Source: Chrysomallon squamiferum (taxonomy: Eukaryota; Mollusca; Gastropoda; Neomphalida; Peltospiridae). From it: a stretch of DNA of 64,000 nucleotides. Under the pieces are notes generated by a model. It was given only the letters and a program-made list of their open reading frames with translations. It made no database searches and was not told where the DNA came from. Shown here one piece after another: positions 14,777 through 62,902 of the stretch. Position 1 is the stretch's first letter, and each line of letters starts with the position of its first letter. The stretch lies in contig CM022673.1 in the NCBI GenBank assembly GCA_012295275.1, positions 1,102,105-1,166,104 on the forward strand. Direction: 5' to 3'. The translations under genes and the position numbers were made by a program.

Positions 14777-14907
14777 CAAAATAGTGAACAACTTTCTTTG
14801 GTCGTCTATCCAGTGGATGGAAATTTTTATTTACTGATGGTGTACTTCTCACATAGACAATCCGAACATGATTTCCTGTCCACCTTCTTGGTGTTCTGTA
14901 TCTACTT
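14777..14907 (-). CDS. Candidate exon (exon E)
   Basis: Acceptor TTTTGGACAG|A, 43 open codons, donor TTTTG|GTAGGT. Basic peptide starting SRYRTPRRWTGNHVRIVYVR and ending NKNFHPLDRRPKKVVHYF. It does not join exon D in phase; at least one unseen exon would be needed. Unrecognised. Confidence 0.3.
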
Positions 14908-16358
14908 CTGTCCAAAAGCATAATTTCAGATTTTCAGATGTTCTTAATTACTTTGAAATTCTTAACTAAGTTGCATGATAGATGATACTGGCATGCTATA
15001 TTAATTTTCAAGTCCTGTTCTTACAAAACTTTCAACACCAATGCTTGCTGGCTCACATCACTCTTAGCGCTTCCTTGTTTACACGATAGCTCAAATGGAT
15101 GTCCAGATTTTGTTAATCCATGGTAAACTTCACACCAGCTAAACATCCATTAGGGCAAACAAGCCTATCACCAAAGGAGAAACAGATACCACCCAAAAGT
15201 CGATAAAACTCTTAAAATGTTTGTCAACTGTACATGCTGCAGAACCATGATGGAAATTTTATGGTTTTTTTTATATTTAATTTTTTTTTTTAAATAGACA
15301 AAAGTACAAAATATAGTAGTAGAAGTAAAGTTTAATAGAAAAAAAAAAATGTAAACTTTTGCAAAAATGACCTTTTAACAGAAATATTAGGCTAGCAATT
15401 AGAAATTCTGAGAGCCTGTGTGGTATTTACAAAAAAACTAGTCTCTTTATTTGAACTTGGTTTTCTTTGTTGTCCTGTGATGTCTGTGCAAACCAACCAG
15501 TCGGATTATTTATGCACACCATTATCATCACCATCAGCAGCAGCAGCACAACAACCTATCTGACCAGCATCTCTGAGGATCGTTATCAAATAATGCATGC
15601 AGACAGAACAATCAGAGCACCACTAGGTATGCCACGACATCCGCTAGACTACAGTGAAAAAATGTCTGAAGTGACAGACTCTTGTCCACTACTTTATCCC
15701 CGACTTCCGGCTAATAAGAAATGCAAGATATGTGAGCCTTGCTGTTATGTATGAAGACATGAAAATGAAAGCATCATGCCAAGATACTACATCTGACACA
15801 TCTTGTACAAAATAAATTACTTGGAAACAGCAAAGGGAAAATCTGCCAAATGTAATCTGTATTACTTGTCAGGATTAGCAAATCAAACATTAAGAGTTAT
15901 GAAACAGTCTACGTATACATGTTGAAACTAGAACAAACTTCCTTTTAATGCAGACACTGTATAAGTAAGATTAATTTAATCAGTATTTTATTTTTTATTA
16001 TTATTATTTTTTTATTTGGTTTCTGTCTTTAACATTTGAAAGGACAAATATAAAAATATTATAAAAATCATGCCAATACTGATAATGTAGCTTTGAAAAA
16101 AAATTGGGATTTTTAATTTCTTTTTAAACTAATTAATATGAAAACATTAAATATATTTTTCTACATTACATGATTAAATGCATTAAAAAAATAAAAGCAT
16201 GTTTTTTTTTATAAAATTAATGTACTGTTATCTTTTTCATTTATACATAACTACTACTACTACTACTATTATTATTATCTTACTGAATGCAAATGAAAAA
16301 TCATTCTAATTTAAAAAAAAAACAATAATGATAAAACTGAAAAGTAGATATGAATATG

Positions 16359-16360
<2 letters not shown>

Positions 16361-16394
<34 letters not shown>
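16361..16394. repeat. A34 tract
   Basis: Uninterrupted run of 34 A. Confidence 0.97.
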
Positions 16395-16397
<3 letters not shown>

Positions 16398-16755
16398 TTA
16401 CTCAGCCTGTATAAACTTTTTGTAATTTGTAAATGTTTACCTTTTGCTTATGAATACAAACCATTGAAGCCTCCATTCATTTCAAGGATATAAATGATAT
16501 GGATTATATTCAAATAATTTTCTTACAAATTTAATATTACAACATCATACCTATCTAAACATTACTATGTTAATTAAATCTTTTTTTGAAACCATTTAGA
16601 ATTATATACAAGCTTGTGACTAAATTCTAATTCACAATTTTTTTTACTTATTATTTATTTTACTTACTTTTAATATAATTTCGTTATTTTATTTCTATTT
16701 ATTGTTATTTTGTTTTTATTAACATTCTTTTCCTCACTTTTCTGGTGGCTATGGC

Positions 16756-16809
<54 letters not shown>

Positions 16810-16810
16810 T
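16756..16810. repeat. (ATT)n microsatellite
   Basis: About 18 perfect ATT units. Confidence 0.97.
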
Positions 16811-17559
16811 AAATAGCAGCTGATAATTTACTTATTGACTTAGCAAAAGAACTTAATATTTAATTTTCAAAAATATATAAACTACTTACCAAACATCAGT
16901 TTAAAATCTTAATTATATGAGGACACAGTCAATTATAATTCTTCTGTCATCACAAAAATATTTAGTTTCTATTTATTTTGCAAGTCGTCATCAGGATAAA
17001 TGCAAACAATGATTTTCAGGCGAGTGAAATACAAGTGTGTGTGTCACTGTGTTGTAACTTAAATATATCATGCAGTGAAAGGATTAACTACACACTGACC
17101 ACACACAACATGTGGTTCACATTCCTTTACAGATAATAATCTAGTTTCTAAATTTTTACTGTTGTCGCTGTTTTCTTGTCACTTGTTTAGTGGTTTTATT
17201 AATAGGTTTCATGTTTAAAGTAAAATATTAAGACACTTTATTACTGTTATTATCTATTTATTTTGGTAATTTATTAATTGATATAAATTTTATCTATTTA
17301 TCTGTTTATCGTTATTTATTAGTATTGCTATAATGTATTTTTTTATTTATTTATTACTACCATTATAAAATTTATTATTATTACTTATTTACTTACTTAA
17401 AACTTTAAATATCTGGGTGCACGAAGGTGATTTTGTTCATAACATTAATTCAAAATGCTTTAATTATCATATAAATTTGTATCTATTTTCTTAAAAACTT
17501 GCAGTGCCATGATTATTAATACAAAGAGATAAAGGTTTAAACTGTGTAGTACACAGTCT

Positions 17560-17621
17560 CACCCACACACACCCACACACACCCACACACACACCCACAC
17601 CCACCCACACACACACACACA

Positions 17622-17694
<73 letters not shown>

Positions 17695-17710
17695 CCACAC
17701 ACACACACAT
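17560..17710. repeat. CA-rich minisatellite/microsatellite
   Basis: CACACACCCACA units, then a long perfect CA run. The Cys/Val ORF on the other strand is an artefact. Confidence 0.97.
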
Positions 17711-18294
17711 GTAGATGTGTGTGTATATGTGTGTGTGTGTGTTTTGTTAATTTTTAATTTTTATTTATTTTATTTTATTTCATTTTTCTTTTTTCTTTTA
17801 TTATTATTTTTTTCTTCTAAATATTCTTTTTGTAATTATCAGTTTATCAGCTGTACATTATACTGATTTATTATTTTCTTTTTATTTTCTTAATAAAAAC
17901 ACCAGATGTGACATTATGAAGTGGTGCTAACCTAAATATCACAGATATAGCTAAGATTAGAATAACATACTGTAAAATGATGAAACTGATCATTTAAAAA
18001 AAAGAAAAAAAAAGGTAATTTTGTTATTGAATAATATCATTTTATATATTAAAACAAATCTAAGATCTATGTTAATTCTCATTTATCTGTTAATAAAGTT
18101 GAAATATTTAATCATGATATTTTAATATGGTTGCTATCAAGGCTTCAGTTAAAATGTATTTTTAAAAAACAAAATACTCTACTGGAAAAACAAATTCATG
18201 TCTTTTTACATATTGAATGCGATCATTACAAAAATCCACAAAGACTGAGTCAATAATATTTTTTTTTTTTTATAAAGCCAACCCAACCAAAAAC

Positions 18295-18340
<46 letters not shown>

Positions 18341-19539
18341 ATATGCTCTATTGGCCTCTTTTCATATTAATCCTGTGTAACAGAAACCACTGTGAACTGT
18401 GAAAAACCTTTAACATCATTAAGTGTGACCATTTCCTTAATTGTTTAACAAAACAGCTGCCAGTAAAATTAAGTCCTTATAATAATTGCTTCCTGTGCAC
18501 TTATTTCAAAGTAAATAAACACTTAAACTTGTTTATAGACATATATAGGCAACATAATAAAGAGAAGGAGAAAAAAAAATCTATGTTCATGCTGTCAAGA
18601 TTTTTTTTTAATGAAAGAATTTTTCTATTTACTTAACAATTTGTATTTTTTTTTTTTCTTTTCTGTTATCTTATCTTTTTGTGTGTGGAGTATATCTTGC
18701 TAGATTTTACAATTTAATGTTATTTATTTAATGGAAAACTTCAGTTAATAAATAAAAAACGGTTAACTAAAAGAATTGCGATTGCAAAATCAATGTCATC
18801 TGTTTTAATATAATTTTGAAGATGTGATTAAGAAAAAAATATATACAATATTCTTTTTATAGTTTTCATAATAAATTAATATTTAATGATAGTCTAAACT
18901 TTTGTTGCTAATGCCTTCATTGTTTTCTTTCTTTTTACTTTAGGAAATTTTTTTTAAAAAAACATTTTAAAACTTTTGTAATAGTTTACATGACCAAAAA
19001 TAAAAATGAATAATTATTTTTACTGAAAGAAATGTTTAAAAGAATAAACAAAGCTAAATTAAAATTCAAAATCTAAATTTAGAAAAATGTTGATACAAAA
19101 ATGTTTGTATTTACTCTGTAAAAAATCCTGAAAAGAAAAGGTCAGTGTTTGAAACTGTAATGTAAATCCATTGTCAACAGTTGTGATTTTTTTTAGTGTG
19201 TTTTTTTTTTTCTCTTTGCATTTGTTTGTTTTCATGCATGTGGATATTTTGTTTTGATTTTTTTTGTGGGTTTTTTCACAAATTAAAAATATTTAAGTTT
19301 TAATTTTCTAGAATATTCAAATAAAATGGTTAATTATATGTTTAAGATACGTAAAAAATAAATAAAATTAAATAAAATTAAAAATAATAAAAAAATTCTG
19401 CTAATCCTAAATAGTATAGAGTGTATTAACAAAGAATTTTGACAACACAATTTTATATAAAATACTGCAGGAGTATATCAGTATCAGCAATCAAAGATTT
19501 AGAAAATTATCTGAGAAATAATTTTTTTTTTTTTATCCA

Positions 19540-20110
19540 ATCCTTGAAAAGTCAATAAATCATAATAAACATGAAAGATACCAAATTTCATCAATAAATG
19601 TTTATAAATTTATCAATGGTTAAGACAACAGATATCTATAAATCATTTAGTCTTCAAAGTGTTTAAAGTATCTCAGATAATTCAAAATTATAAGATGACG
19701 CTATGTTATTTGAAAATAACACATACATTATCAACAGATGTAAAAACTGTCAAAGGTTAAAGACAACAAAAATCTGTAAAATTTCATTCGAAGTGTCTAA
19801 AAGCACAAGTAAATCAGACAGAAAGATTTCTATAGATAATGCCATAATCTTCGAAGATACCACATTTTATGAATAAATATGTTTAAAAATTGTCAAAGCA
19901 TCAAAATGAGTAGAATGTGTATAAATTAGTTTAAGTTTTCAAACGTGTCTGTAACATATGATAACATTAATTTATGCAGATGATGTCAGATTATTTTTGT
20001 AACTGGGAAGATAACCCAGTGAGTCAATAAATGTATTCATATATTATCCAAAGATTAAATCAAATCTATAAATGTTTTATTCAAATTTATAAACTATTTG
20101 GTCAAATTTA
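19540..20110. repeat. Degenerate repeat field
   Basis: Recurring blocks such as AAGATACCA-ATTT, TCAATAAATG, TTGTCAAAG and TCTATAAAT-ATTT return several times in order, with units of roughly 90-300 bp. An old, decayed tandem array is likely. Confidence 0.55.
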
Positions 20111-20993
20111 TTTAATCTTTTAACAGTTTTAATAAATGAGGTAAAATTCTGTACATGCAGATACTGAAATTTTGCTGAAAATACTGCACTTACTGTATAA
20201 TTTAGTAAATTAGTGAATGACACCTACCCTCAAAATTGTAGCGAAAAGATGTCAAAGCAACCATATGTCTTTGTTCACAGTTAACACAAAAATAAACGTG
20301 TCACATTATTAAGCAGCTTAGACCAAATACTTTTATCTTTAAGGAAATGTTTAAGTTATGTGGCCCGTAAGACTGTTGAACATAAGTTTATTTATCTTTT
20401 TCTTGTCACTTTTTGTATGCTGCAGTTGATGGATGCACATCATAAAATTCAGTGTTAAATGTTTTTAAATTCTTTTGATGTTGTATTATGAGCTTGTTTA
20501 AATGTCTGTTACTTTTTTTTTAATTAAAATTTATAAAAATGTTATTTTTTTTTTTTTTTTTTTTTTTTTAAATCCAAATGGATAGAGTGAATATAGAGGT
20601 ATATTTGGTAGAAAATCTGTGAGAATAGCTTGGTTCAACTGTATTAAGATTTATAGTGATAAAGTCATAAAATGAAAGGAATGTTGTATTTTATTTGTAA
20701 AAGAAGTGATTGTTTTATAGTCCCTGTTCTTGGGTGGGAGCCCATTACTTTCATCAGACTGTCAAAAAGTCAGGTTCATGAAACAATTAGGAACACTGTA
20801 TGTTTGGGGATTTTTTTTTTTTTTGTATTTCAACATTTCTTTTATTTATTTTTTTTCAAAAAGGCATAAAACAACAAGAATATCAGTTCTTTGTTTTCCT
20901 GATACAAACACAAATTATTAAATAGTGTAAGTAATTTATTCACCACAGACCTGATCCACATTTCTATAATAAAGATATTAACAATGTACTTAC

Positions 20994-21056
20994 GTTTGAG
21001 AAGACGTCCATCTTGTGGATGCTTCGTGTACACTGAAACATGTCGGTGAACGGCAC
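20994..21056 (-). CDS. Candidate short exon (exon D)
   Basis: 63 nt between a good acceptor (TTTTTAATTTCAG|GT) and a near-perfect donor (AAAC|GTAAGT). Reads AVHRHVSVYTKHPQDGRLLK. It is phase 1 on both sides and joins exon C (G+GT gives Gly). Its base composition is more balanced than the surroundings. Unrecognised. Confidence 0.38.
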
Positions 21057-21295
21057 CTGAAATTAAAAACTTATTTAGTAAAACAGTTTCTGTGTTCTGA
21101 AACACTGCAACATGCTTACAACATTAGTAAAGTTACAGTCACATTCCAAACATAACATCACACCATTTTATCATCCCAGTCACAATCTCTGCAGTTATAA
21201 AAATCTAAATAGGTATCAGATACCAAAACAACAAATACTGTCAAAAGAATAAAGTGTTTTCAGTTTATACACACACAAACATGAACCCATACCCA

Positions 21296-21363
<68 letters not shown>

Positions 21364-24300
21364 CAGGCCTATATACACATAAAATAAAAATTGAATCTAC
21401 TGATTATAAAATGACATTATCATGGCTTAGGTTGATATTTTGTACATATCATCACAAATTTATTTTTATTATTAGTTGGTTCTTTTCCATTAAACATTAA
21501 AAAAAACTGAATTTAATAGTTATGCAGGCTATACATAAAGAGTTAATTTTTTTTTTCCCCTGACAGACATATGCATATATTTTCTGTATACTGTTATATT
21601 TTCATAAACAACATAATAACTCCATAATAACACATGGTGTCTTTTCATAATCTGTTTGGAACTTGACTATATCGTTTTATACCATTTGTATTATTTTCTT
21701 TATCTTGCATACAGAATAACTTTTTAAATATATTCCGTTGTAAGTTTTCGTATTTCGTTCATGGTTATAATGGAACCAGTATTTAAAAGATAGATCGTTT
21801 TGTTTCTTTTAGTTATAATGAATGTAATGTGGATTTTTTAGTTTTTCTGAGGCTTTTTTTGTCTTTGTTATTGACAATGCTTATGTTATTAATTCTTTTT
21901 TCTTCACCATAAAAAGTAAAATGCCTCGAACACTATCATCAGAAGAAAAAAAAAAGGGGGTACAAATCAATATTAAGCATTCATTATTTTGGCACTAAAA
22001 TCTATAAACCTAATCCATTCGAGAGGTTGGAAGGTTAATGAATGCAGTGTTAATACTGTCACCTCATGTTTCTAATTTGGCAGCAAAGGGGCACTTTTCA
22101 CTGGCAAAGGAATTAACTTAAATCAGAGGCTTTCTCTTACAACCATCTTTAGATGAATCTGCTTTAAATCCTGGTTAATCTCACTCTGTAAAAAGGATAA
22201 GAAGAAAAAAAAAAATGTCTGAGTCTGTAAGTCTCTGAAATCTAACAACAGTGCGCAGTTCAGAGCTTCTACATACAGTCACATGTCCATGTAAAGACCC
22301 AGACCAGACACTGCTGCAGATCTGTGTTTGTGCACATCAGACAGAGATCCTAAAAAGAAATTGTGAATCTCTGCTCATGGATGGGAGAAAAACTGATGCC
22401 GGATCCTCTAGTCAAAGAACAAACCTTCAACAAGGCAGTGCGAAGTTGCGCGTCATGCTGCAATGATTATTAAGGGTGGAAGTATCCAGCATTCCACCTC
22501 GTTCCTTTGACAGAACAAAATGTATTCAAGTTTAAAGAAATGTTTTCGATTTAAGTAAAAATTTGTCAAAAACAATTGATAAAATTGACATTCAAAAAAA
22601 GAAAAGTTAATGTAACATCAGTGATAAATGGACATACAATAAAGAGGCAAAACTGCAAAAGCTAAAGTAAAAACAAAACTTCTTGCTCCCAATAATTGTA
22701 TGGATAAAAATATTATTTTACTAAATATTAAAATAATTATATATATATATATTATATAAAAAATAATAATAATCAAGGATTAAATATTATTTTTTGCCAA
22801 CATTAACACTAATGCAGAATATTTTTTAAGGTGTTGAATAGTTATGATATGGTAATAATGCACTTTTGTTTAAAATATATTTTTTCTAAATACAATGATA
22901 GAAATCCAAATTTAATTTTAAAAATAATAATAAAATAACATAATACATTTAACAACATAAAAAAAAGAAAAAATGCGTAAAATGTGAAAATTGAAAACAA
23001 TCTTTTGAAATCTAACATTTGGATGAAAATCAAAAAAAAAAAAAAAAAAAAAGGCCAAAATATGCTAACCAAAAATTTGTGGTAGATTAAACGAGAGTTT
23101 TAGCAAGTGAAAATATTGACTGAAAAAAGATTACTTCTTAGGTGTCAAGCCACCATTCGTAACCTGTAAATCTTTATAACACTTGACCTTGAAACACAGC
23201 CAACCCAAACCCCACCAAAAACCCAGATTACAAGATTTCAAATAGAAAACATTTGTTTGTTACACCTGCATGCATGATCCTTTTAATCACTGCTATTAAC
23301 AGGCCATAATTATGTCATGTGGCTCCTTGGAAAAGAAAATGTTGAATCTTCAACACATCAATAATAATTCTAAAAGAAATTTCACAGATGGCAACCAACT
23401 GAAACAGCTGCAGGATCAGCTCTTTTCAAAGAGAAATTGGGCTATGTTTCCAGTTCTAGTTACTGCTCCACACCTGACTTGTTCATCGACAGTTGTCCTA
23501 TGAATGCATGTAAAAGTTATGTTCCTGCTAATCAAAACGAAATAACCCATATTGTTACTTTTATCATTATTTGTGTGAGTCTTACATGTGATACCATGTA
23601 ACCATAGATATAATAAAGGGAGTTAATATCATTAAATAAAGTATTTGTTCCTTATTTTGTTTGAAATAATTGTCTTTAGTAACTCTTTTACTGTCAAGTT
23701 ATGTGAAGCATACATTTACTGGCATTCAATACTTGCAATGCTGATAATAAAACTATTTCATTCTGAAATATTTGTCTTTCCTTGAAACTGAAGTATTCTG
23801 TAGAGTATTTTAAACCTAAACAGTAAGGAAAACAATTGTAAAATACACAATTCACAAACAAAAAGCATAACAACAAACAAAAGGATTAATTACAGTACAA
23901 TATAATATACACTGAAGATGTCCAAATACATACATTAAGTGTCTGTAAGTGCAAAGAATAAATGCCTACATACTTTATACATACATACACACATCTATAT
24001 ATATATATATGCATAAACAAAAAATAATATTTCGAACTAAAAAAAAAAAAATAAGCTAAAAGAAAATAAACACAAGATTTTCTAATTTTACATGTCCGTA
24101 CCATTTTAATAATATGGCAATGAGATCATTTAGATATTAGTAAATTAATTTCCAAGTTGTATTACCATATTATTAATTGTATGTACAAAATCGAAATTCA
24201 TAAAGTCACAGTTCAATAAGAATTGTTTAAATATATATATATAATTTTCTATTTTCTCTTCTTCATTTTCTTGTTTTTATCAACAATCAAAAGTAATAGA

Positions 24301-24373
24301 AAAAATAGTCAAACTACTTGAAGTGAAGAATGGATGAATCCATCACCAGAAGTTAGAACATTTCTGTTCTTAC
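21057..24373. other. Non-coding region with complex block at 22.0-22.5 kb
   Basis: (CA)n at 21297-21361; a higher-complexity block at 22010-22500 and another at 23110-23500; AT-rich elsewhere. If the candidate minus-strand gene is real, this is an intron. Confidence 0.45.
21297..21361. repeat. (CA)n microsatellite
   Basis: About 65 bp of perfect CA. Confidence 0.97.
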
Positions 24374-24553
24374 CTTGTTTACCATGACACTTTTTTGCAC
24401 GAACTCCTCGAAGCCAATTCAGAACCAGGTTCCAAGTATTTGTGTCATTTTCTTTGCAGGATTTTTCTTTTTTTTTAGTAACAATTTCTTCAGAAAGGTT
24501 TGCAAGTGTTTTATTGTCTTGTGCTTCCAGCCACTTTTTATCATTTAAGCTGT
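24374..24553 (-). CDS. Candidate exon (exon C), hydrophilic, ends at strong donor
   Basis: 59 open codons with donor CAAG|GTAAGA. Part of the reading is DSLNDKKWLEAQDNKTLANL and WNLVLNWLRGVRAKKCHGKQ. It enters after GGGCAG|AC and fits exon B by phase. Alternatively, an ATG in good context (CACAATGG) at 24566-24564 makes this a first coding exon. It has potential glycosylation sequons (NKT, NLS, NDT). No family is recognised. Confidence 0.33.
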
Positions 24554-25590
24554 CTGCCCAAACCATTGTGAAATACTTGTTTTGATTAGGGTTTGGTTTT
24601 TTGGTATTTTTTTTTTTGTTATTAATGAATTAATTTAAAAAAAAATTCTTACTGACAATTATTTTGTACCTGAAATTCACATGAATTTTTACATCTAATT
24701 TTCAACCTTACAGAAAACAGATGTCAATAAAACGACTTTGAAGTATGCTGAATTACTTGAATGCACAAGAAATATGTAACACTGCAGTATCCACATCCAC
24801 ACAGTTTTAGTGAACTTTCAATGTAATTTAATTAATACAAAATGAGTGAAGATGGTGAAAGTTATCAAAACAAGGTAATACTTTCTGATGAATATTACGA
24901 AGTTCCCACAGAGCTGGTGTCTTGAAAACTGTCCAAATGGTGAAATGCACAGTCCCACTGTGAACACATGTATGAGAAACGTCAAATACTTGTTAAATCA
25001 TCTAAGCTTACCACACTTATTACTCCACAATTAGCAAAACTGCCACTTATGGTGCTCGTATATCAATCAAAAACACTTGCAAGGACAGAGAGTAATAGGT
25101 TTAAATACTGTTAATAGCTTTTGGAAAAGCTGGTTAAACTTCAAGAAGAGAAAATATCTGAATAAATTATGTGATTTTTCATCCACTTGCAGTTATGAAG
25201 TTTTTGGATTTAGTATATACTTTGAATAAAAAACACTTTATACAGAAGTTTTTATAAGAAACAGAAAAATATATTGGTGAAAAAAATAAATGGAAGTAAC
25301 TTTTTTCTTTCTATGAACTTCAGACCGCAAAGACTTCTGAAATATTTCCAAATACTAACAATTTGTTACTGAAGCCAATCAGAAACCAAGTAGCAGCATT
25401 CACAGTAAACGATACTAATGGTTTTCAGAATTACTTTTAGAATAAACTGGTTTCCACAGATGTCTGCAATAATTACAAATATTCTTTATAAAATTTTAAT
25501 CACATTGATTTAGTACTATTAAATCTGTTTTGAAAATCATCCATGTTATCCAAATCATAAATCAAAACTGAAAAATGATGTTCTTCACCG

Positions 25591-25852
25591 TATCAACAAA
25601 ATTTCTCAATCTGTACAAAAATCGTCTCTTCAGGTGTTATTAGATCTCTGCATTTGAAAATTCAGTTCTGACAGTATTTAACACGTCTTTCATCTTAACC
25701 AAAAGATATGTCAAAACTAAAAAAAAAATATTTCTTTCGCCCAGAGCTGAAGTCCAGATATCAACAAACTGTCTCGATCTTTGCAAAAACTGTTCTCTTC
25801 AGGTGTTACAAGATCTCTGCATATGAAAGTTGGATATTGAAAGTATTTAACG
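25591..25852. repeat. Direct duplication, ~93 bp, period 168
   Basis: Copies 25591-25683 and 25759-25852 share TATCAACAAA, CTCTTCAGGTGTTA and AGATCTCTGCAT with about 20 percent change by eye. Confidence 0.85.
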
Positions 25853-28024
25853 TGACTTGTGGCCAGCTGTGTGATTGGCTGTTGCTGTTTACTCACAAGA
25901 AAAGTTTACAAACAAAACAAAACCAAAGAACATCTCAGGTTTTTTGGTTCCCAATGTCTTCGCAATCACGTCTAAGCAAGACAATGGAGACTGGGGACAA
26001 GTACACAGCCCGCTCCCTAGTTAACACTGACTCACAGATCTGTCTAGCAAACCCAGTGTGTTAGACACACAGCCAATCTCGTGGCTGCAGAAACAACACA
26101 TAAACCTGACTTCTGCAACAACATTATCAAGAATAAATATGCACAGTGGACTGGGTAATTCTGAACTGAAACAAAAAGATGTTTTACAATGACTGTCAGG
26201 CAGCCGTAATCAAACAGAAATAAAATGAACCTAAATTTGGAGATCAACAAAATATTCCAATCCATGTGACTTTAAATGCATATTTATTCTAAAATTATAA
26301 TGAGCAGTATAAACAGCTGAAGAAAGAAATAGACATAAAATAAAGATCAAATATTTATCTTCTGGTGAAACTGGAAGAGCAGACAGATAAGAATAAATCA
26401 AGTCATATTTGTAAAATATTTTTTTTTTTAATAGACACATGAAGAAAACTAATCATAATGCCAGTGTAAGCAATATATTAATCATGGTAATTTGTGATAA
26501 ATATGTTTATAAAAATACAGGTAAATAAATCTATATTATACTTGATTAAGCCTAAAATTAAAACAATACTTTACCAAATGATTTAATGCATTAAAAAAAA
26601 GATGGGGTTTTTTTGTTTGTTTTTTTGTGTTTTTGGGGGGGATTTTTTGACTGCATTTCTGTACTACTTACAATCTAGAACTAATCTTTAAATTAAATGA
26701 TATTGTTTATTAATCATTTTTAAAATTTTATGTAACAATGATTTGTTTTACACATATAATTCAAATTTTTATATGAAAGACCAAAATAAGGGTTCCCTAG
26801 CTATATCATTTACAAACTGATCTGATTAAAATAATATGTAAATTTTTTTATAAAAACAAAGTCATGTTAAACAGTCTGATTCCATCATTCTTATTATTAT
26901 GATAAAAAAAGAAGTTACAGATGACTTTCACTGTTTAGTAATAGTAATTTATAAAGTCGTATGATGTTTAAGTGGGTAACCATCCTGCATGTTCAGACAA
27001 CTCAACTGAAAACACTGAATATTGTTTGTATTTTACAATATATCTCAAAACATCAATCTATCAAATTATCACAACTCTACCCATTTACTGTTTGGTAAAC
27101 CACACTTTAATTTTCAAGATATTACAACATTTTTAAATCACTTAAGAATTTGTTAAACCGTACTGAACAACAAACTGTACAGAATTTCATTATAAGCAGA
27201 TAATTGATACTGCTGCACAAAGTGTAAATAATTGATAAGAAGCATTAAAACAAATAATAATGGGAAAAAAATGTTAATTAATTAACTGAATTTAATTAAA
27301 TTAAAATAAATATTAACTGACCTTTAGGATAAAAGGTGCGATGTTTCTTCAAGCACAGACAACCAATAGTCAACAATTTAGGTCTTATCCAATCACGTGG
27401 GAAATTATTTTTCTTCTCTTTCAAATATTTCATTTCAACTTTTTCAAAATTTAAAAATACTTTAAACAGTAGAAGAAAAATACAGCAAAATTTTCAAATT
27501 AAAAAAAACGTGAAAATCGTGACAAAAAAAAGAAGAAAAAAAGTGCTACAATTTAAACATCAACTGTTTTGTACAGTACTTTTTTTTTTTCTTTTTAGTA
27601 TCCCAAAACAAACTCCTTCTACATAACATCACATTTAAATGTCAGTTTGCGTGAAAAGTGTCACAAGTTGTCACAGGAGCCCAGTGAACTGTCAGCAGGA
27701 GACTTAAAAAGATGAACTACACTAAGCACTAACTGTATAGAAAAAAAAAAAAAAAGGCTTACACCTGGTTCACTGTCTAGCTTCACATCTGATTAACTAC
27801 ATCATTCTAGCAATTATCTGCCATCCAAGCTGAACCCTGGATCATTAACAGCTGAACATGACTGCATTTTCTATTACACAATTAATTAGTTACAAGCAAA
27901 CCGTTTGGCCTTTTTTATCTGGAGGTGGATATTTAATACAATTATCTTGCCTCCACATGTTTTTTTATTTGAAGGAAAATTTTGAGATGCAACCTAGATA
28001 GACAGTGTGGGTGTGTCTGTGTCT

Positions 28025-28026
<2 letters not shown>

Positions 28027-28101
<75 letters not shown>

Positions 28102-28112
28102 TGTGTGTGTGT
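28027..28112. repeat. (GT)n microsatellite
   Basis: About 80 bp, with two interruptions. Confidence 0.97.
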
Positions 28113-28274
28113 CTGAATGTGTGCCTCTGCATGTATGTGTGTATGAGAAAGCCATTGGTTTTAAAAAATATTAAGTTTATTTATCATTTACTTCATTTTT
28201 TTTTCTCACTTATTCTTTGAAATCCCTTCACTGGGATATTATTAATCAATCACTGCTTAAATGTTCAAACTCAC

Positions 28275-28401
28275 CAATTCTGTTTCGGTCGTCATATTTT
28301 ATTTGTGTTGGTATCCTTTCCAAATTCCAACTGCGATTTTTAGAAAACCGTTTCATCGTGATACATGCATAAAGAATTTTATTAATCAAATTAAAATATT
28401 G
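28275..28401 (-). CDS. Candidate exon (exon B)
   Basis: 42 open codons plus one base. It starts QYFNLINKILYACITMKRFS, continues KNRSWNLERIPTQIKYDDRN and ends at a near-perfect donor ATTG|GTGAGT. An in-frame stop lies just upstream of the acceptor. Phase 0 in, 1 out. A 102-codon plus-strand ORF overlaps, so open frames alone mean little here. Confidence 0.27.
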
Positions 28402-28809
28402 CTGTCAATCTTCCAGAAAATCTTCTGCGCTATTCCACTGATAAGAAAACATTTTCCTACACTGAATCATCAAAATGGTTTTTGTGAACGCAAACAAAAG
28501 TCATTATCTGTCTATGAAGTCCATGTATATGCATTGTTTATCCGAGGGCCAGTTACTACCTACATGTAGGCTGGGCAAAGTTAATCACCACGCTATCATT
28601 GTTTAAACAAGAACAATCAACCTAGATGGTGGGAAAGATGCCAAACTAATCTGTCATGCTTTTTCACTTTTTTTATTTTTATTTTTTTTTAATTTTTTAG
28701 TTGTTTTTTTGTGACATCAAAAAATGAACTTTGTGTTTCAGTTAATTTAATGTAAATATTCAGTTATTATGTTTTTTGTGGGTTTTACTTTTTTAATTAC
28801 TAGAAGATG

Positions 28810-38625: not shown

Positions 38626-41048
38626 TAGTAGAAACTGAAGTAAAGAGTAATAATAATTTTTATATATTTAAAATGTGTGTGTGTGTGTGTGTGTAATTTT
38701 TAAAAATACCATTTCCTTCGTCGAAAGTCAAAAGTGCACACTAACGCATGGCCATGGCATTTGGGCATATACATGGTTACTCGAGAACACATAATTATGT
38801 GGATACACAAGAAAAACAACAGATGCATAAACACTGCCAGTCGTATTAACTGAACTTGGTTATCATCGAAACTTCAACAAATCAAGTTTAACACACCAAT
38901 AATATATTACTTCTATTTCGAAGAGGAAAAGTGTGTAATTTGAATCTACACATGGAATTTCTGAGCAAATTACGTTGGCGTGAAACTGTCACGAAATATT
39001 TCACAACTAGATGATATTCTCGGGGAAAAAAAAAGAAAGAAAAAAGAAGAAGCATTGGAGAAAATTAACAATAAGAAAAACAAATCTATCTATTTATATA
39101 TTTGTACCGGTTCTGTTATTATTAAGGCGGAAATTAGTCAAAAAAGAAACGGACATACAACTTAATGCTTCAGTTATGCCTTAAAATGTGTAACATTAGA
39201 TACCTGAAATAGAACTTATGAATGTATTTTTGTTTCGAAATTTGATATCAAGGATCTAAATTTGATTCAGTCAGTAAACCGTTTTGAAAGTGAGAAATGT
39301 TTTTTTTAAATTATTTTTGTTTTTATTTTTGTTTTATTTTTATTCTTTTAATGCAAAGGGTTAGTTTTGTTTTTCGTTTTGTTTTTGTTTTGTTTTTATT
39401 TTGTTTCACGTTGTTTTTTCCGAATTTTAATAGTAAATTTTGGTTCATTTGTCATTCTTAGGTTTTACATCAGTTTTTCATAAATAAATAATAACAATGG
39501 CTATCACCATCATCATTATCATCATTATTAGTATCTTCATCATCATCATTGTCATTATTAGTGCCAGTAGTTATAATGGCAGTAGTGGTAGTAGTGGTAG
39601 TAAACCCACAGTGCCCATTTTCGTTTGACAGGTGCAAAATAAAGGTAACAGGTGATGAGAGAAGGAAGATCCGTTATCTTCTGTTTCTTCTAGGGATGGT
39701 TCGAATATATGAAATTCTTTGATGATCACCATTATAAATATCCCACTGAATAATAATGCCAGATTACCTGCTTCAAATATATCATCTTTTAAAAAAAACA
39801 ACAAAAAGGATACACCTACAGTATTTAATAATTCAGATACTTATATTTATTAGTATATATATATATATTTTTTTTTTTTTAAATGATCTAAATTTATTGA
39901 TAAATTAAGATATTACACCGTACAGGTAGCAATAATTTATAACAAGCATTGTATTAGGACAAGCAATAATAATAATAATATTGAAACAACAATAATAATA
40001 ATAATAACAACAACAACGACAACAAAAATAACAACGATAATTATGATTACTATTGTTGTTATTAACACTATTGGCATATTATTTTTTTGCTATTATTATT
40101 ATTATTATTAGTAGTAGTAGTAGTAGTAGTAGCAGTAGTAGTAGTAGTACACAAATGCTACAGTTAATAAATATAATGAAATAAATAAAAAAATTCTGAC
40201 ACTAAAAAGAAATTGTAAAATCGAATCAATGTCTAAAGTAATAATTACATGCACAGAGAGACATACGAAAACACACACGTACATATGTAGAGAAAGACTC
40301 AAACAAACAGACAAACACATACACTAGAGGCAGACACACACTCACTCACGATATACAACTTAAACGCAAGTATAGGAATGCTGAATACAAATTAAATACA
40401 TATACAAACACATACATACATACATACACGATAAATACAATTTAAAAACACACACACACACACACACACACATGCACACACAATTTATGCTTATTTTTAA
40501 GTTATGACCTAAATGTATAATCTGATACAGCTAAAATAAATCGGTTATGAGATTTCTTGATCTATTATCACAAGTGGGGCATTCTCGTCTGCATTTATCT
40601 TAATTATCCACTTTTGATAACTTTTATTTTCCCTTTCATTTTAATCACATGTGTATTTATTAATTTTTGCTTGTCAGTCTCAAAATAATCTTTAACTGTT
40701 TTCTTTTTAGAATAGAGAAGAGAGGATGAATAAACGAGAGTGAAAGAAAAATCATCAGAGGGTGCTACAATGATATCATGCATGTGTTTGCGTGCGCATT
40801 AACGTGCGTGAATGTGAATATGAGAGAGTCGTAGACAAGGAGACAGAGACTGAGGAAATTAAGTATAAGAAAGAAAATTATTCAATGATTAACACGAAAG
40901 CTTCTTAATTTGCTCAAACCAAATGAATTGACATTCCTTTATTAACGAAATTATTCATTCGTCAGCTTAATAATAATAAACAAAATTATCAACCTTGTTC
41001 AAAATCATTTCTTTAGACAATATATAAACACACTTTCTATGTTTTGTC

Positions 41049-41083
<35 letters not shown>

Positions 41084-41719
41084 TTATTATTATTATTATT
41101 TTTATTATGTTCAGTTTTTTTTTTTACCGTAAATGCTTTTTAACAATTATACGATATCATTTTATTTTCAGTAATGAAAACATTGAAAAAAAAAAATAAT
41201 AAAAAAAAAAATAATAATAAAAAATAAAAAATATCCAATAGGCTGTTTAAATATTAAAACTGAGAACGCTCCAGTTGTAAGTCTGATTCTTAGCATGAGA
41301 AGACTTGTCAGTTTTAAGCGTAAAATAACACTGACGGAAGATAAAGAGTTATCTGGTATCCGTTTACGAAAAGGATGTGTTACACCAACAACGATTTGTT
41401 CCTTTTGTTTCTTCTTTACGACGATGTGCATTAGAAAAACCTGATAGTTTAAGCATTCCCTGTATTCTTAATTGTGTATAGGAAACTATTTCCGAACCGG
41501 TTTTCAAAGTCACTGTTTCTAATTCTTCTCTTTTTAGATTTTAAATTATTTTTTTTTTTTTAATTGAGGGTGGATATAAATGTTCACCTATTAGTTTTAA
41601 CTTTAGAAAAAAAAATAAAAATAATAATAATCTTTAAAATATATTATTTAAAAAAAAAATATATATATATATAGAAATAGAAATAAAACACTGAGACTTT
41701 TAAAACATTTATACCGTTA

Positions 41720-41764
41720 ATGTATGTATGTATGTATGTATGTATGTATGTATGTATGTGTGTA
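41720..41764. repeat. (TATG)n microsatellite
   Basis: About ten TATG units. Confidence 0.95.
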
Positions 41765-41829
41765 TTTTTAGAATTTTGAATATTCTCTGTCTTATGTACT
41801 TCTGATTAAACTCTGTGCGTAGTCAGTAG

Positions 41830-41960
41830 GCGGGAACGCATGGACCCAGGAAGACAAAGTCCATTTATGACGACACAAACCCCGTAGACGCCGTTGACGA
41901 GAAGGTGGATGTCATCCACGTTACCATTCCCCTGAAGCACGCAGTTCTTTTGTCATTCGT
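41830..41960 (+). other. Open segment of unusual composition, possible exon
   Basis: Behind a GTCAGTAG acceptor-like site lies a CpG-rich, non-repetitive frame (KTKSIYDDTNPVDAVDEKVD, then VIHVTIPLKHAVLLSFV). It runs into a (GT)n tract. It looks more coding-like than its surroundings. No donor is found before the repeat and no family is recognised. Confidence 0.18.
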
Positions 41961-41961
41961 C

Positions 41962-41964
<3 letters not shown>

Positions 41965-42009
<45 letters not shown>

Positions 42010-42016
42010 GTGCGTG
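41965..42016. repeat. (GT)n microsatellite
   Basis: About 40 bp of perfect GT, then imperfect. Confidence 0.95.
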
Positions 42017-42239
42017 TGAGTGTGTCTGGGTGTGCAAGTATGTATGTATTTGTCTATAAGTATGTGTGTTCTTGCAGTTGTTTCTGTCTCTCACATACAC
42101 ACGTATTCATCTATTTGAAATATTTCAGCGAAGTTTAAACATAATGGCTTTATCAAAATTTTCTGTTACACAAAATAACTAAACGGAGAATACGAATATT
42201 CATATCTTTTTAAAATATAACTAGACACAATATCTTTAA

Positions 42240-42272
<33 letters not shown>

Positions 42273-42278
42273 AATAAA

Positions 42279-42610
42279 GACAATATAACTGTCATAATGT
42301 AGAAAAGGAAAAAAAAAATTAAAAAGAAAAATTATTAAATAATGTATGTCATCTGTAAAATATCAGATCGGCTATAGGAACTCATGCAGGATTATATTAT
42401 TATTATTATTATGTTTTTAATTTATACAAAAACAACAACAATCAAAAAAGAAAACAAACACAAAAAAAGTGTCGTAACTTGGATAATACAGAGTAGACAT
42501 CTGCAACATTTTGTTGTATAGATTTCTTCTTCAACGACACCACATTCATTTCTATGAACATTAAAATATTACTCAAATTCCTGAGTAAAATATTAAAAGA
42601 AATAATAATA
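42279..42610 (+). repeat. Dispersed repeat, copy 1
   Basis: Shares about 300 bp, clearly diverged, with 56878-57180 in the same orientation. Shared blocks include ATATAACTGT, AAAATATCAGAT, AACTCATGCA, CATAACTTGGATAATACA-like and TCTATGAACA. Both copies start after (AAAT)n and end in (AAT)n. This copy has about 23 extra bases near its end (CTCAAATTCCTGAG). Confidence 0.85.
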
Positions 42611-43714
42611 ATAACAATATAAATTCAGATTTGTAGATTGTAAATTTCATGATACAAATATTTTGCTTTTCACCGAGAAGAGGCAAATTAGAAGTGGTAG
42701 CAGTAGTTATAGTAGTCACGGTTTTAACTACACTGAGGCAAATGCCTCATACCGAAATTGGCCATTTTTATCATTTAATTTTATTTATTTATTTATTTAT
42801 TTAGATTTTAATACAAAGATTTTATTTTAAAAATATAAAATATAAATCTCTGTTCCGATTGCAAAAACGACATCCGCTGAATGAATTCGTTTTTATCTGC
42901 GGTTACCGTTTGAAGCTGGAACTTCTGGGGGCCTTTATTACGGCTTTGGTAGTGATAATAAAACTAGTGGCATTTGAAGTACTAACAACGAGGATTGTAA
43001 TTATCGAAAAAAAAAAAAAAAAGGAAAAAAGGAAACATTTTATTTAATGACGAAATGACAAGTTTTTTAACTGATAGTTATGTTATGTCGTGCATAAGAT
43101 TAAGAAATATTAATGGATAATAATCACAAACATAAAAAAAAAAAAAAATAAATAAAAAAATACATTTTTAAAATTTCAGATTACATCAGTATCGCCGAGC
43201 ATCGTAAGTAGCGGAATACGATATCCTCCGATATTTGCGATGGTTATTTATAGATTGTATTTGTTGTGGGCGAAGGTTTATCTCCTGTAACTGCGGGTCG
43301 TAACGTGATAACCGGTATTAAGTATCAAAACGTACATAAAAAAGATACACTAAACCGCGATGAAAACGAAAATGAAAGATACGACTTAATTAGGATTGTC
43401 TGTTGATACTTTTACAACTGTTAACGTCTGTAACAAAAAAGAAAAAAAAAAAGTAAAGAAAAGAAAAAAAAGAAAAAAAAAGAAGGAAACATCCCCAAAA
43501 AGAAAGAAAATTTGATTTTTTTAAAAAGAAAAAAAGGGAAACAAAACCAAACCAAACAACGACAAAATAATCATAATAATAAATAAATAAATAAATAATA
43601 AAAATAATATATAAATAAATAAATCCAAAAACAATTAAAAACAACAAAAAAAAAAAAAAAAACTACTACTAATATGAATACTAATACTAATACTACAACG
43701 AAAACATTGACGAT

Positions 43715-44104: not shown

Positions 44105-44367
44105 ATCTCTGTCTATATATATATATTATTATTGTTGTTATTCTTCTTATTATTACTATTATTATTATTATAATTATTAGAAGAAGAACAAGAAGAAATT
44201 AAAACCAAATAATAATTTATAAAAAAAGAAAAAAGTGACGGTGTTAATCTCCATCAATGGCGTGGCGCGTGTCATCCCACGCACAAACTACGTGAGAGTA
44301 ATTTGAGAAGATCGATCTTTGACCTGTGATCAGCAACTGTTTCAGCTACCTATACTAACTGGGGAAA

Positions 44368-44525
44368 ATGCAAAACGATGAAACAAGGAAATTCTGCTTC
44401 TCTGTCTTGATAATCACCTTTTTTTACCTGTCGTGGGCTTCCTTTGGCAGTTTCGTATTCAGGACATCTGTATATAAAGACGATGGAACTGAAATGAAAT
44501 TAGATTTGAAAAATAAGTTAAACAG
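44368..44525 (+). other. Orphan ORF with signal-anchor-like helix ending at a splice donor
   Basis: ATG with favourable context (AAAATGC), then MQNDETRKFCFSVLIITFFY, LSWASFG and a hydrophilic tail, open to AACAG|GTAACG. It looks like a first exon coding a signal peptide or type II anchor. It leaves two bases over, which does not fit exon 2 of the cytokine-like gene at 45479. I found no linking exon between them. It may be an alternative first exon, a 5' UTR exon or chance. Confidence 0.25.
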
Positions 44526-45012
44526 GTAACGAGTTGTCTTTGTCAGCGTAAGCTTTATCTCATAATGAACTCGTTTCAGTGTAAGTAGTTTAATTATTGC
44601 TAATATCAAGTTAGTTTATGTTGAATTTGTTATTTATTATTTCACACACACATATCATCGTAATTAATAAAATTATTGTTAAATATTTTCTCCAAAACGT
44701 ATTCCAAATTATTTATTTGTTTACTTAAATATTTGTACAGTCTATTAAAGTTATAACTTTATATTTTTTAAATTATCCAGATATTCATAGAGTAAATAAT
44801 ACTTATATTTATAATAAATAATTTGAAAAGCTCATTTAACAATAATTTAAGTAATTAACGGGATAACATTTTTACAAAATAAATAAATAAATTATCATAT
44901 TTACTGCACTGTTATTATATACATATAAGTACAAATTTAAATCATTACAAAGCTAATTTATTTGATAATAAATATATCAGATACATCACTGATTAGAAAA
45001 ACACGATAAAAG

Positions 45013-45043
45013 ATGTTTTCGTTGATCAATGTCAAAAAGAAAT
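45013..45043 (+). CDS. Cytokine-like gene, inferred first coding exon
   Basis: ATG with A at -3, ten codons (MFSLINVKKK) and one base, then AAAT|GTATTT, a mediocre donor. Chosen because exon 2 needs one base from upstream and because T+AC gives Tyr, completing a convincing signal peptide. This is an inference; a distant first exon is possible. Confidence 0.35.
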
Positions 45044-46842
45044 GTATTTTACTTTACTTTATTTTATTTATTTATTTATTTTTATACTTACTTGCTTACT
45101 TATTTTTACGCTTTTTGTTGTTGTTGTTTTGGGTTTTTTGTTTGATCTTTATGGGTTTTTTTTTAATGATTCTTATTTCGATTCTATTAGTAATAAATAA
45201 AAAGGATAAAAAAAAAAATATTAATGACATTTGTATGAATGACAAGGTAACAACTACTGTTATTTAAATAAAATGACTATGTTAATGATAATGATGATAA
45301 TTATAATGACGGTGATGATGAAAATATCATTAATAATAACTAATTTTACCACATTTTTAAGTGTAGACTTGAATTTATAAAAAAAAAAAAAAAAAATCAT
45401 TATTAAATTAAATAATAAGTTATTTTTTGAAATAATAAATAAATTTACATCTATTTTATTTATATTATTTGTCTTCAGACATCTGCATTTTGGTCGTCTG
45501 CGCCACAACGAAGATGTCGTTTTCCAACGTCATTCCGTCAACTGTATCCAACGAGCCGGTGACAGCCCCCACAACGTTGTCCAGTCAGGAAGTTGCGTCT
45601 CTGAAACTGATCTTTGGAAACTGTACAACTCTGCTTCATATTGCTGAAAGTAACATGAACAACACTTTTAACTATGTGGTAAGCTTCTTCTTCTTCTACC
45701 TAATTATTATGAGTGTTGTTATTGTTGTTGTTGTTATTATTATTATTATTATTTTCTTTTCCTTTTTTTTTCTTCTTTTTTTTTTCGGTTATTCGGTTAA
45801 ATATATAGAAAGAAAAAAGTTTTGTTCACAACACACAAACACGTAATAAAACTTATAATAACAATTATGTGCTAAGACATTTTGAATAATTATTTTCCAT
45901 TTTAAGGTTTATATTTTAATGGCAATGATTCAGTTAAATTACTTTTAAAAACACGAGAAATTTTTTTTTTTAATTTTTAATTTTTTTTTTAATTTAATAT
46001 TAACTGCATTTGACATTGATTAATTTTATTTTTTACCACAACGCTTCTAGTTATTATTACTGTCGTTGCTGTTGTTATTCTTCTTATTCATATAATTATT
46101 ATTATACTGACATTTTACTATTTTAAAACATTTATTCGTATATTTGAGGGTGGTGATTCTTATCTGCCTTTCTGCAGAGGTCCATGGATATTCAGAAACA
46201 TTTTTATCCTCTGTACGTCCTTATTTTATTATTTCATGTTTTGGTTTGTGAAACTTATTTCTCATCCTTTATCATATCTCTTGTTTTAGTGCAAACGTTG
46301 GTGTGAATCATATAATCAACCGGCGGTCACGTGCTGCAGTACTATTCACTCATTGGCTGCTACCGGTGATAATCAAAATAGTGAGGACGAAAAAACGTCT
46401 TCGTCAGAGGTATTTAAGATTTATAAACTAAATTATTTTTAGTATTAATTATTTCAGTTAGTACAGTAACATTATTAAATATAATTTAACATTTCTTTTA
46501 TATAATTTAACTTTTCATCTTAGATTACTTACGATTTTTTTCTTCTTCTTCTTCTTACTATTATTATTTTTAAATTGTTCAAATAGGATAAACTGGAACA
46601 GATTTACACTACGGTCAACAAATACCGAGAAATCGTACAAATTCTAGCCCAACACGCGGAGAAGAACCTCTGCCAAATCCACTGGTCACGGGGTATTCCC
46701 TGTGTGTACCCGACAAACTGTGTGACGACAAAGGACGATAAAGAGAAAACATTCTGTTACTATCGAAATGTAAAAATTAACATGGATAGTGTGTGGTTAC
46801 TTCTGAAAGACGCTGTAAGTAATTAAAATAAATAATTAAGTA

Positions 46843-46888
<46 letters not shown>

Positions 46889-47280
46889 TAAATAACATAT
46901 TTTTTTTTTTTTTTTATATATATTTTTTAGGGGTGTTGGGGGTTTTCTTTTCTTAATAAACAACAAACAAACCAACAACAAAAAAACAAAACAAAAAACC
47001 CCTACGAAATAGCAAAATTATTATTATTGTTATATTGCTCTTGTTGTTCTTGTTGTTTATTTTTCTTTCATTCTTTTTCTAATTAATTAAAAATGTATTT
47101 TATTTTCTGTTATAGCTGAACTTAATAAATCGTGAGTCACAAACGGTAACGTCATCCACATCAGAAGATCCCAGTGGCGAAATGATGGAAGGACTGGCTG
47201 ACTTAATGAATCTATCACGTGCCCTGATTACCATACAGGAAGTTACCACATCTTTGAAGACTCTCCAGAATTGGGACTAG
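45013..47280 (+). CDS. Candidate secreted four-helix cytokine-like protein, 5 exons
   Basis: Unrecognised by sequence. The joined frame gives about 247 residues. Residues 1-21 look like a signal peptide: a KKK n-region, then hydrophobic YICILVVCA. Four amphipathic helices are predicted by eye: about 45-77, 118-145, 181-200 and 214-245. A cysteine-rich linker lies between helices A and B (C78, C82, C92, C93), and four more cysteines (C146, C156, C162, C174) frame the B-C linker. Sequons occur at N58, N71 and N225. After the first intron (phase 1) all introns are phase 0; the 1-0-0-0 series in five exons is the known layout of long-chain class-I cytokine genes. The protein would act extracellularly on a receptor. 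Exons 2-5 are well supported. The first exon is uncertain: an alternative signal-anchor ORF at 44368 does not fit the phase. No homologue is named. Confidence 0.7.
45479..45678 (+). CDS. Cytokine-like gene exon 2 (signal peptide h-region, helix A)
   Basis: Acceptor GTCTTCAG|AC, donor GTG|GTAAGC. Codes ICILVVCATTKM, a Ser/Thr/Pro-rich stretch, then SSQEVASLKLIFGNCTTLLH and IAESNMNNTFNYV, a likely helix A. It enters needing one upstream base and leaves in phase 0. Confidence 0.75.
46290..46409 (+). CDS. Cytokine-like gene exon 3 (Cys-rich A-B linker)
   Basis: 40 codons, phase 0 on both sides. Acceptor CTTGTTTTAG|TGC, donor GAG|GTATTT. It starts CKRWCESYNQPAVTCCSTIH and ends in an acidic, Ser-rich segment. 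It holds four of the nine mature cysteines. Confidence 0.75.
46587..46814 (+). CDS. Cytokine-like gene exon 4 (helices B and C)
   Basis: 76 codons, phase 0 on both sides. Acceptor CAAATAG|GAT, donor GCT|GTAAGT. Helix B is DKLEQIYTTVNKYREIVQIL and continues AQHAEKN. A cysteine-containing loop (NLCQIHW, PCVYPTNC, TFCYY) follows. Helix C starts at NMDSVWLLLKDA and continues into exon 5. Confidence 0.8.
47116..47280 (+). CDS. Cytokine-like gene exon 5 (end of helix C, helix D, stop)
   Basis: 54 codons and TAG. Acceptor CTGTTATAG|CTG. Codes LNLINRESQTV, a Ser/Thr-rich loop, then helix D from EMMEGLADLMNLSRALITIQ to KTLQNWD. This fits the final helix of a four-helix bundle. Confidence 0.78.
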   Translation: MNLINRESQTVTSSTSEDPSGEMMEGLADLMNLSRALITIQEVTTSLKTLQNWD

Positions 47281-48770
47281 GCCCTCTAATATGAGTGTAT
47301 CAGAGATGCATTGAAAATTGAATGGAAGATAACGATCGTGAAAAAGATGTGTTACTAAAAATAATTATTTGATTTTTCTATACTATACATAAATTATTTT
47401 CTTATTTATTTTTGACTTTATCATATGCTCCACAAAAAAAAAAAAAAAAAAAAGAAAAAAAAAAGAAAGAAAGAAAGAAAGGAAACAAAAGATAGCTTCA
47501 CATAGATCCATCACGAATCGGAAAACCTGTAAGCATTTAAATATGTTAGAAAAACTTGTATTTAAATGTTTAAAATTAATTGGAATATTCGTATTACATA
47601 AGTCCCAATAGCTTATATTTTTGAACTATACTCTGTGTATTGATGCTTCAGAATTAAATAATTCAAAAAGATGGGTGGGTCCGTACTTTATAGAGTAAAA
47701 CAAAGTTTAAGATGTACGGTATTTTATATATTATGTATTGTTGTTGTTGTTGTCATTATTATTATTATTATTATTACTGATCAAGTTTAGCTATAGCAGA
47801 AAACATAATACGTCATTATTTAAAAAATACCATACAGTTTCGTAAAATTAGTTATATATTCAGTTTCGTTTCGCCTGCAGTTTGAATACAAGTTGTAGGC
47901 ATTTTCTTTTTCTTCTTTTCTTTCTTTTTTTATTATTACGTTTTTGTTTACTAACAGTTGTGTGTCTTTGTGTATAACATTTTGTGTACAATAATAGCTG
48001 TTTTGTGGTATTATTTTTTATTTTTTACTATTACTACTACTGCCGCTACTACTAATACTACTGCTACTAATATTACTACAACATTTTGTATTTTTTGTAT
48101 CAATTTCAGAAAGGTTTTTTAAGCGATAGTTACAACAGTGTTTTAGTAAGATGTTAAATTGTGTGTTGTATGCTGTATTTAATGTACAGAGACTCTTCAA
48201 ACGTATTTTGCATTGATTAATAATTGGAAAACAATGTAAATGTCAATGTATGCAATATTTTGTGAATTAGATTTACTTTTTTTTTCATCTCATACATCTA
48301 CCTTTAATATGCTGATGTAATTATAATATTTTATAAATTAGACTTATTATTGTTATTTTTTTTTAAAATTCTCATTTTTATCTATAAAAATTGCATGTTA
48401 TTAATAATTTCATCAACAATAATTTTAAAAAAGCATTTATTTATTTATCTATTTTTCATTTATTTTATTCTTAACAATAAACCAGTTATAATAAATTCGT
48501 AACTTAATAAACTGAACTAATTATTAATTAAATGAAGTTTGTGAGTTTATATAGTAAGACATACTGTCTAACATATACCGTTGTGTAATTAGTTAAATTA
48601 ATGTAATCTGTTTCTTCTTCTTCTTATTATTATTATTTACTAATATTTGTATGTCTTTTTGATGGAGCATTTCCATTTTTGTTATTTTTAAAAACTTTTT
48701 GTATCACATTTACTTTTAAAATGTACACATCTTTTTATCTCAATAAAGCATTTATATTTTTATTTGGCTT
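47281..48770 (+). other. Probable 3' UTR of the cytokine-like gene
   Basis: AT-rich stretch after the stop codon with many ATTTA-like motifs, which in vertebrate cytokine mRNAs mark rapid decay. It also has an A-rich low-complexity run at 47431-47480 and (ATT)n at 47752-47777. It ends near a strong poly(A) signal. The link is an inference from position and strand. Confidence 0.45.
48742..48747 (+). terminator. Poly(A) signal AATAAA
   Basis: Canonical AATAAA followed about 30 nt later by a GT-rich segment (GAGTTTGTTCTG). It is the best cleavage signal downstream of the cytokine-like gene. An alternative AATAAA lies near 48475. Confidence 0.5.

Positions 48771-52876: not shown

Positions 52877-62902
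<10,026 letters not shown>

Follow-up and report, generated by a model that had tools for sequence, protein, structure and literature searches.

Whether this locus encodes an unrecognised secreted protein of the four-helix cytokine kind was analysed within the window, that is, the whole stretch of 64,000 nucleotides of DNA. The preliminary description, made from the sequence, had placed a gene at 45013-47280 and likened its product to long-chain class-I cytokines. The gene looks real. The 254-residue gene model described below (model A) was searched against its own molluscan genome of 404.6 Mb (22 contigs), and the five matches found at E <= 10 were its own five exons, which indicated a single-copy gene. 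As 5/5 of these matches lie at this locus, a transposon or a repeat was ruled out as the source of the gene. The RBPJ gene adjoins it in the window. The features of the locus are as follows.

44368..44525, plus strand: candidate coding part of exon 1, with a Met, the signal-peptide-like hydrophobic run FCFSVLIITFFYLSWASFG and the donor AACAG/GTAACG, phase 2
45479..45584, plus strand: first part of exon 2 in the form of the preliminary description, or an alternative exon piece; exonic by composition
45585..45678, plus strand: core of exon 2 with helix A, between the acceptor GTCCAG (45585) and the donor GTAAGC
46290..46409, plus strand: exon 3, presumed A-B loop; 120 bases, phase 0 at both ends, CKRWC...CC
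46587..46814, plus strand: exon 4; 228 bases, phase 0 at both ends; helix B, four-cysteine segment and start of helix C
47116..47280, plus strand: exon 5, closing with QNWD and the stop TAG; presumed to hold the end of helix C and, after a short Ser-rich segment, helix D
48742..48747, plus strand: candidate polyadenylation signal AATAAA, one of six AATAAA/ATTAAA motifs
53351..62902, minus strand: RBPJ/Su(H) gene, context only; TIG_SUH (3.9e-19) and BTD (6.5e-14) in two pieces

Exon chain and splice sites

The exons 2 to 5 form a single frame, as had been claimed; it is open with no internal stop, and the joins 2-3, 3-4 and 4-5 are all in phase 0. The exon 2 ends at 45678 on its 3' side and the reading frame closes with QNWD-TAG at 47280. 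The splice sites were scored on generic matrices, which gave 5.9, 0.6 and 2.5 for the donors of exons 2, 3 and 4, and 2.6, -8.1 and 1.2 for the acceptors of exons 3, 4 and 5. The splice sites had been called good; this holds for some of them and fails for the acceptor of exon 4 (-8.1) and the donor of exon 3 (0.6). The AATAAA at 48742-48747 is a weak candidate because it is one of six such motifs in AT-rich sequence. The 3' end gave no signal of the AU-rich cytokine type, the ATTTA motif occurring 13 times compared with 13.5 in shuffles.

Exon chaining was carried out using a coding model trained on 371 RBPJ codons. The top plus-strand chain of the window reached 106.6 bits and contains 45479-45678, 46290-46409, 46587-46814 and 47116-47280 with exact ends; it also adds three pieces upstream (39562-43314), which were not accepted as parts of the gene. 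The best chains in 30 block-shuffled windows reached up to 94.7, so the margin for the whole window is modest. Local chaining over 44300-47400 gave a best chain of 58.6; the maximum over 300 shuffles was 34.1, and the opposite strand reached 20.5. This local chain retains the exons 4 and 5 and has shorter forms of exon 2 (45479-45583) and exon 3 (46290-46365); for exon 3 it uses an earlier donor, whereas the whole-window chain uses the donor of the preliminary description. The RBPJ-trained coding score favours the frame of the gene in the exon 2 core (45585-45678; 1.9 vs -5.8 and -6.7) and in exons 4 and 5, whereas in exon 3 another frame scores 13.6 and the frame of the gene 9.1. The minus-strand RBPJ chain extends across the gene locus via small antisense pieces, which is a weakness of such chaining.

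The second-ranked plus-strand chain of the window, at 14619-28606, has 14 exon-like pieces. It is probably due to chance, since its score of 83.2 is no better than that of the shuffled windows (maximum 94.7).

The 5' end of the gene carries a conflict of reading frames. The start claimed at 45013 was rejected, as the 234 bases of 45013-45246 have a GC content of 20%, similar to the surroundings and intron-like, and are in the wrong phase: the donor at 45246 leaves phase 0 and the acceptor at 45479 requires phase 1. The candidate exon 1 at 44368-44525 has a GC content of 35% compared with 19% in the stretch downstream, the chance of an open frame at its composition is 0.015, and its donor at 44525 (score 5.4) is the best among those listed in 44380-45480. 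In the genome search at E <= 10 it is single copy. Its coding score is negative (-10.0 in its own frame; -8.2 and -13.6 in the others), and its putative signal peptide was assessed by eye. Model A joins this piece (phase 2) to 45585, the sole in-frame acceptor, which lies inside exon 2 and has a score of 4.1, equal best in 44540-45600.

The piece 45479-45584 looks exonic. Its 106 bases have a GC content of 53% compared with 19% upstream, and two of its frames have a high coding score, 23.9 in one and 19.0 in that of the preliminary description. It is open in two plus-strand frames and also lies inside a minus-strand open stretch; the acceptor at 45479, TTGTCTTCAG, scored 1.5. When read on from 44368-44525 it falls into a different frame, with a stop within exon 2. 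Two 5' models compete, and 45479-45584 is out of frame with 44368-44525. In model B, which was retained as an alternative to model A, a first exon of 16 bases (44565-44580) joins to 45479 in phase 1 and in frame, giving 242 amino acids; its splice scores of 1.9 and 1.5 are weaker than those of model A, and it has a short hydrophobic run. The frame conflict could be due to alternative splicing, to an exon that escaped detection, to an error in the assembly or to a true frameshift. The first intron is in phase 2 in model A and in phase 1 in model B, and the introns 2-4 are in phase 0; in the class-I cytokine genes of vertebrates the first intron is in phase 1 and the internal introns are in phase 0.

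Predicted protein and searches for relatives

The core of the predicted protein comprises 202 amino acids from residue 53 of model A. It has nine cysteines (66, 85, 89, 99, 100, 153, 163, 169 and 181) and three sequons (65, 78 and 232; model A numbering throughout), in accordance with the earlier account of a cysteine-rich protein with sequons. Four segments with helix propensity, in agreement with the number proposed earlier, were located at about 53-84 (A), 126-152 (B), 185-208 (C) and 219-251 (D). The amphipathic helix-prone 18-mers of the core, counted at thresholds chosen by the analyst, numbered 6, whereas 2000 shuffles had 2.1 on average (P = 0.0015). The hydrophobic moment of helix A is weak, being 0.20-0.30 along most of its length, and this helix was assigned wholly by propensity.

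The exons 4 and 5 were modelled separately using AlphaFold2 in single-sequence mode without an alignment. The exon 5 alone gave one helix of 33 residues (19-51) with high confidence, the pLDDT blocks over 21-50 being 92, 98 and 95. The exon 4 alone gave a helix at 2-28, a hairpin at 45-59 and a helix at 66-74, and this model carries little weight as its mean pLDDT is 51. In the exon 4 model the helix C is 9 residues long, and the exon 5 model lacks it, its residues 1-18 being non-helical; the helix C is therefore assigned mainly from propensity.

Helices of about 27-33 residues suit long-chain cytokines. The segments between the helices are of about 40 (A-B), about 33 (B-C) and 10-14 (C-D) residues, and the usual order in class-I cytokines is long A-B and C-D crossovers with a short B-C. 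The up-up-down-down topology fits poorly because the B-C segment is long and the C-D segment short, and this order of loop lengths is the main structural point against a class-I cytokine. Secretion is plausible and depends on the candidate first exon with its negative coding score. The protein is probably a secreted, helical orphan.

The search for relatives covered 5.8 billion proteins and required shared five-residue words. No homologue was found at E <= 10 among these proteins for the two 5' readings, which gave 86 and 314 candidates. The same search with RBPJ as a control returned 1172 relatives at E <= 0.001 out of 2135 candidates; among the matches listed (best 120) were Littorina, Patella, Mytilus and Octopus, with the snail Littorina saxatilis scoring highest and the annelid Owenia and the limpet Patella close behind, so that a snail is no more than a fair guess for the source of the DNA. 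This control indicated that molluscan proteins are present in the database. Owing to the five-residue-word requirement the search would miss a fast-evolving ligand; cytokines diverge fast, and the same behaviour here would account for the absence of relatives.

The PDB gave no match by sequence (one query form) and NCBIfam gave none. In Pfam, queried with exons 2-5 from the inner Met and with model A, the matches were sub-threshold noise. Two of these were rejected: DUF4363, with an E value of 0.045 for exons 2-5 from the inner Met, is far below the cut-off and not listed for model A, and 7TM_GPCR_Str, with 0.091 for model A, has no stretch passing alone and is not listed for the other query. 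A match to a known cytokine was thus not seen by sequence or profile in the protein databases, PDB, Pfam and NCBIfam, and the statement that the protein belongs to no recognised family was confirmed in these four. Rfam had 0 matches in the window.

Signalling pathway and competing readings

The components of a receptor-JAK-STAT pathway were searched for in the genome. The STAT_bind domain was above the cut-off in 2/2 exon matches at C2:16.65 Mb, which indicated that a STAT is present. The receptor domain IL6Ra-bind (PF09240) gave two matches at E <= 10 in the genome (0.63 and 5.8), both below the cut-off and with stops inside. The one with two stops was rejected, as by look it sits among exon-like pieces of another, nuclear-type gene; the other has one internal stop. 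The JAK domain FERM_F2 gave one match in the genome, with an E value of 0.48, below the cut-off; it was rejected as a JAK for its two internal stops and its neighbourhood of low-complexity frames. The surroundings of the IL6Ra-bind match with two stops and of the FERM_F2 match do not look like those of a receptor or a JAK. The lack of above-cut-off receptor and JAK matches is not evidence of absence, since an exon-by-exon search for divergent domains is insensitive.

A helical-cytokine-like extracellular ligand was taken, tentatively, as the leading reading of the gene. The single-copy gene would give a secreted, disulphide-rich and N-glycosylated protein of about 200 residues, with the helices A-D probably packed as a four-helix bundle. 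Such a protein may be released into the haemolymph or tissue, where its binding would bring single-pass receptors together; these would signal through a putative JAK and the STAT found in the genome. The phase-0 open exon chain, the single copy, the helix-prone segments, the cysteines, the sequons and the STAT favour this ligand, and so does the signal-peptide-like frame 44368-44525, which joins in frame. The odd count of nine cysteines, the non-coding score of the candidate exon 1, the weak moment of helix A and the helix C being short or absent in the exon models speak against it, as do the lack of a relative in the databases covered, the loop lengths and the sub-threshold IL6Ra-bind and FERM_F2 matches. 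A true class-I cytokine is a less likely form of the ligand and on the whole rather unlikely: the helix pattern and the size agree with the class-I assignment proposed earlier, and the lack of a sequence relative and the reversed loop order disagree with it. None of the outcomes that the preliminary description had named as refuting its proposal was observed. It is likewise unlikely that the gene is a genuine molluscan four-helix cytokine that supplies the missing ligand for the molluscan receptor-JAK-STAT module or for CRLF3.

Almost the same likelihood as to the cytokine-like ligand was given to a different kind of secreted molluscan effector. The gene would then encode a lineage-restricted, fast-evolving, helical and disulphide-stabilised protein that does not bring receptors together, such as a reproductive-tract or pheromone protein, a haemolymph or defence factor or a gland secretion. 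The protein is an orphan at this search sensitivity though molluscan proteins are in the database, and its four-cysteine segment with a possible hairpin (low confidence) and its CxxxC...CC pattern are untypical of class-I cytokines; these observations fit such an effector. Fast-evolving molluscan secreted proteins often occur in multi-copy clusters, however, while one copy of this gene was found at E <= 10, and no match to any such family was found in Pfam. It is quite improbable that the protein, secreted and helical, has another known fold and is too diverged for detection by sequence; examples are a four-helix ligand of receptor tyrosine kinases (of the CSF1/SCF/IL-34 kind) and a helical disulphide protein without bundle packing. 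The helices and cysteines do not fix the topology, and the short C-D link may permit up-down-up-down packing, but no profile match was above the cut-off. The least probable account is that of a decaying or mis-assembled gene, in which the clash between 44368-44525 and 45479-45584 would stem from an error of assembly or from a frameshift that disables the gene. The exon-like 45479-45584 is indeed out of frame with the best candidate for exon 1; against decay, no stop interrupts the shared frame of the exons 2-5, and in-frame joins are available from 44525 to 45585 and from 44580 to 45479.

Comparison with known systems and neighbouring sequence

The cytokine-like ligand was compared with known systems. 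The vertebrate class-I cytokines (IL-6/GH/EPO) resemble the orphan in size and phase-0 internal introns, and also in the start and the four long helices if its candidate signal peptide and its predicted helical segments are real, whereas no sequence similarity to them was found and the orphan has a long, cysteine-rich B-C segment and a short C-D segment. A growth-hormone-like protein reported from amphioxus is a helical cytokine of class-I type outside vertebrates with low identity to vertebrate GH (PMC9010856). It is a chordate protein, and ligands of class-I type outside vertebrates thus have a chordate precedent in it. The Unpaired (Upd) ligands of Domeless are known from insects according to the excerpted text of a 2026 survey (PMC13203501); the orphan would likewise be an invertebrate JAK/STAT ligand, with no sequence similarity to Upd found. 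The same survey reports that molluscs have IL6R, JAK and STAT, whereas IL6 itself is restricted to vertebrates (PMC13203501); this molluscan module is from the same phylum as the orphan, although here only STAT was found.

The endogenous ligand of CRLF3 is described, in the passages cited, as unidentified in any species (PMC8063046), and an invertebrate helical cytokine is expected there as the ligand, its identity being left open (PMC8063046, PMC6797617). The orphan is alike as a putative invertebrate helical cytokine. In the literature searched, by titles and the beginnings of abstracts, no four-helix cytokine was named in a mollusc. This single-copy gene for a right-sized, helical and probably secreted protein is a concrete candidate for such a ligand. 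If it does encode a genuine four-helix cytokine, lophotrochozoans have ligands of class-I type that sequence searches have missed. Should the protein prove to be something else, it would add to the fast-evolving orphan secreted proteins of molluscs.

The window is very AT-rich, with a GC content of 23-34% in 2 kb steps, which is low for a mollusc, and it has many simple repeats. Upstream of the gene, a GC-rich open stretch at 41830-42037 (52% GC) was observed; its first 49 residues gave no Pfam match at E <= 0.1, and it may belong to another gene as a stray exon. Elsewhere in the genome, the haemocyanin family PF14830, whose beta-sandwich domain is characteristic of molluscan haemocyanin, gave 27 matches. 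The genome, described earlier as of invertebrate type, is thus molluscan. All 27 matches lie on one strand within about 70 kb (C6:24882028-24951449), an arrangement consistent with several tandem molluscan haemocyanin genes, and one of them lies inside an open frame of 1903 residues.
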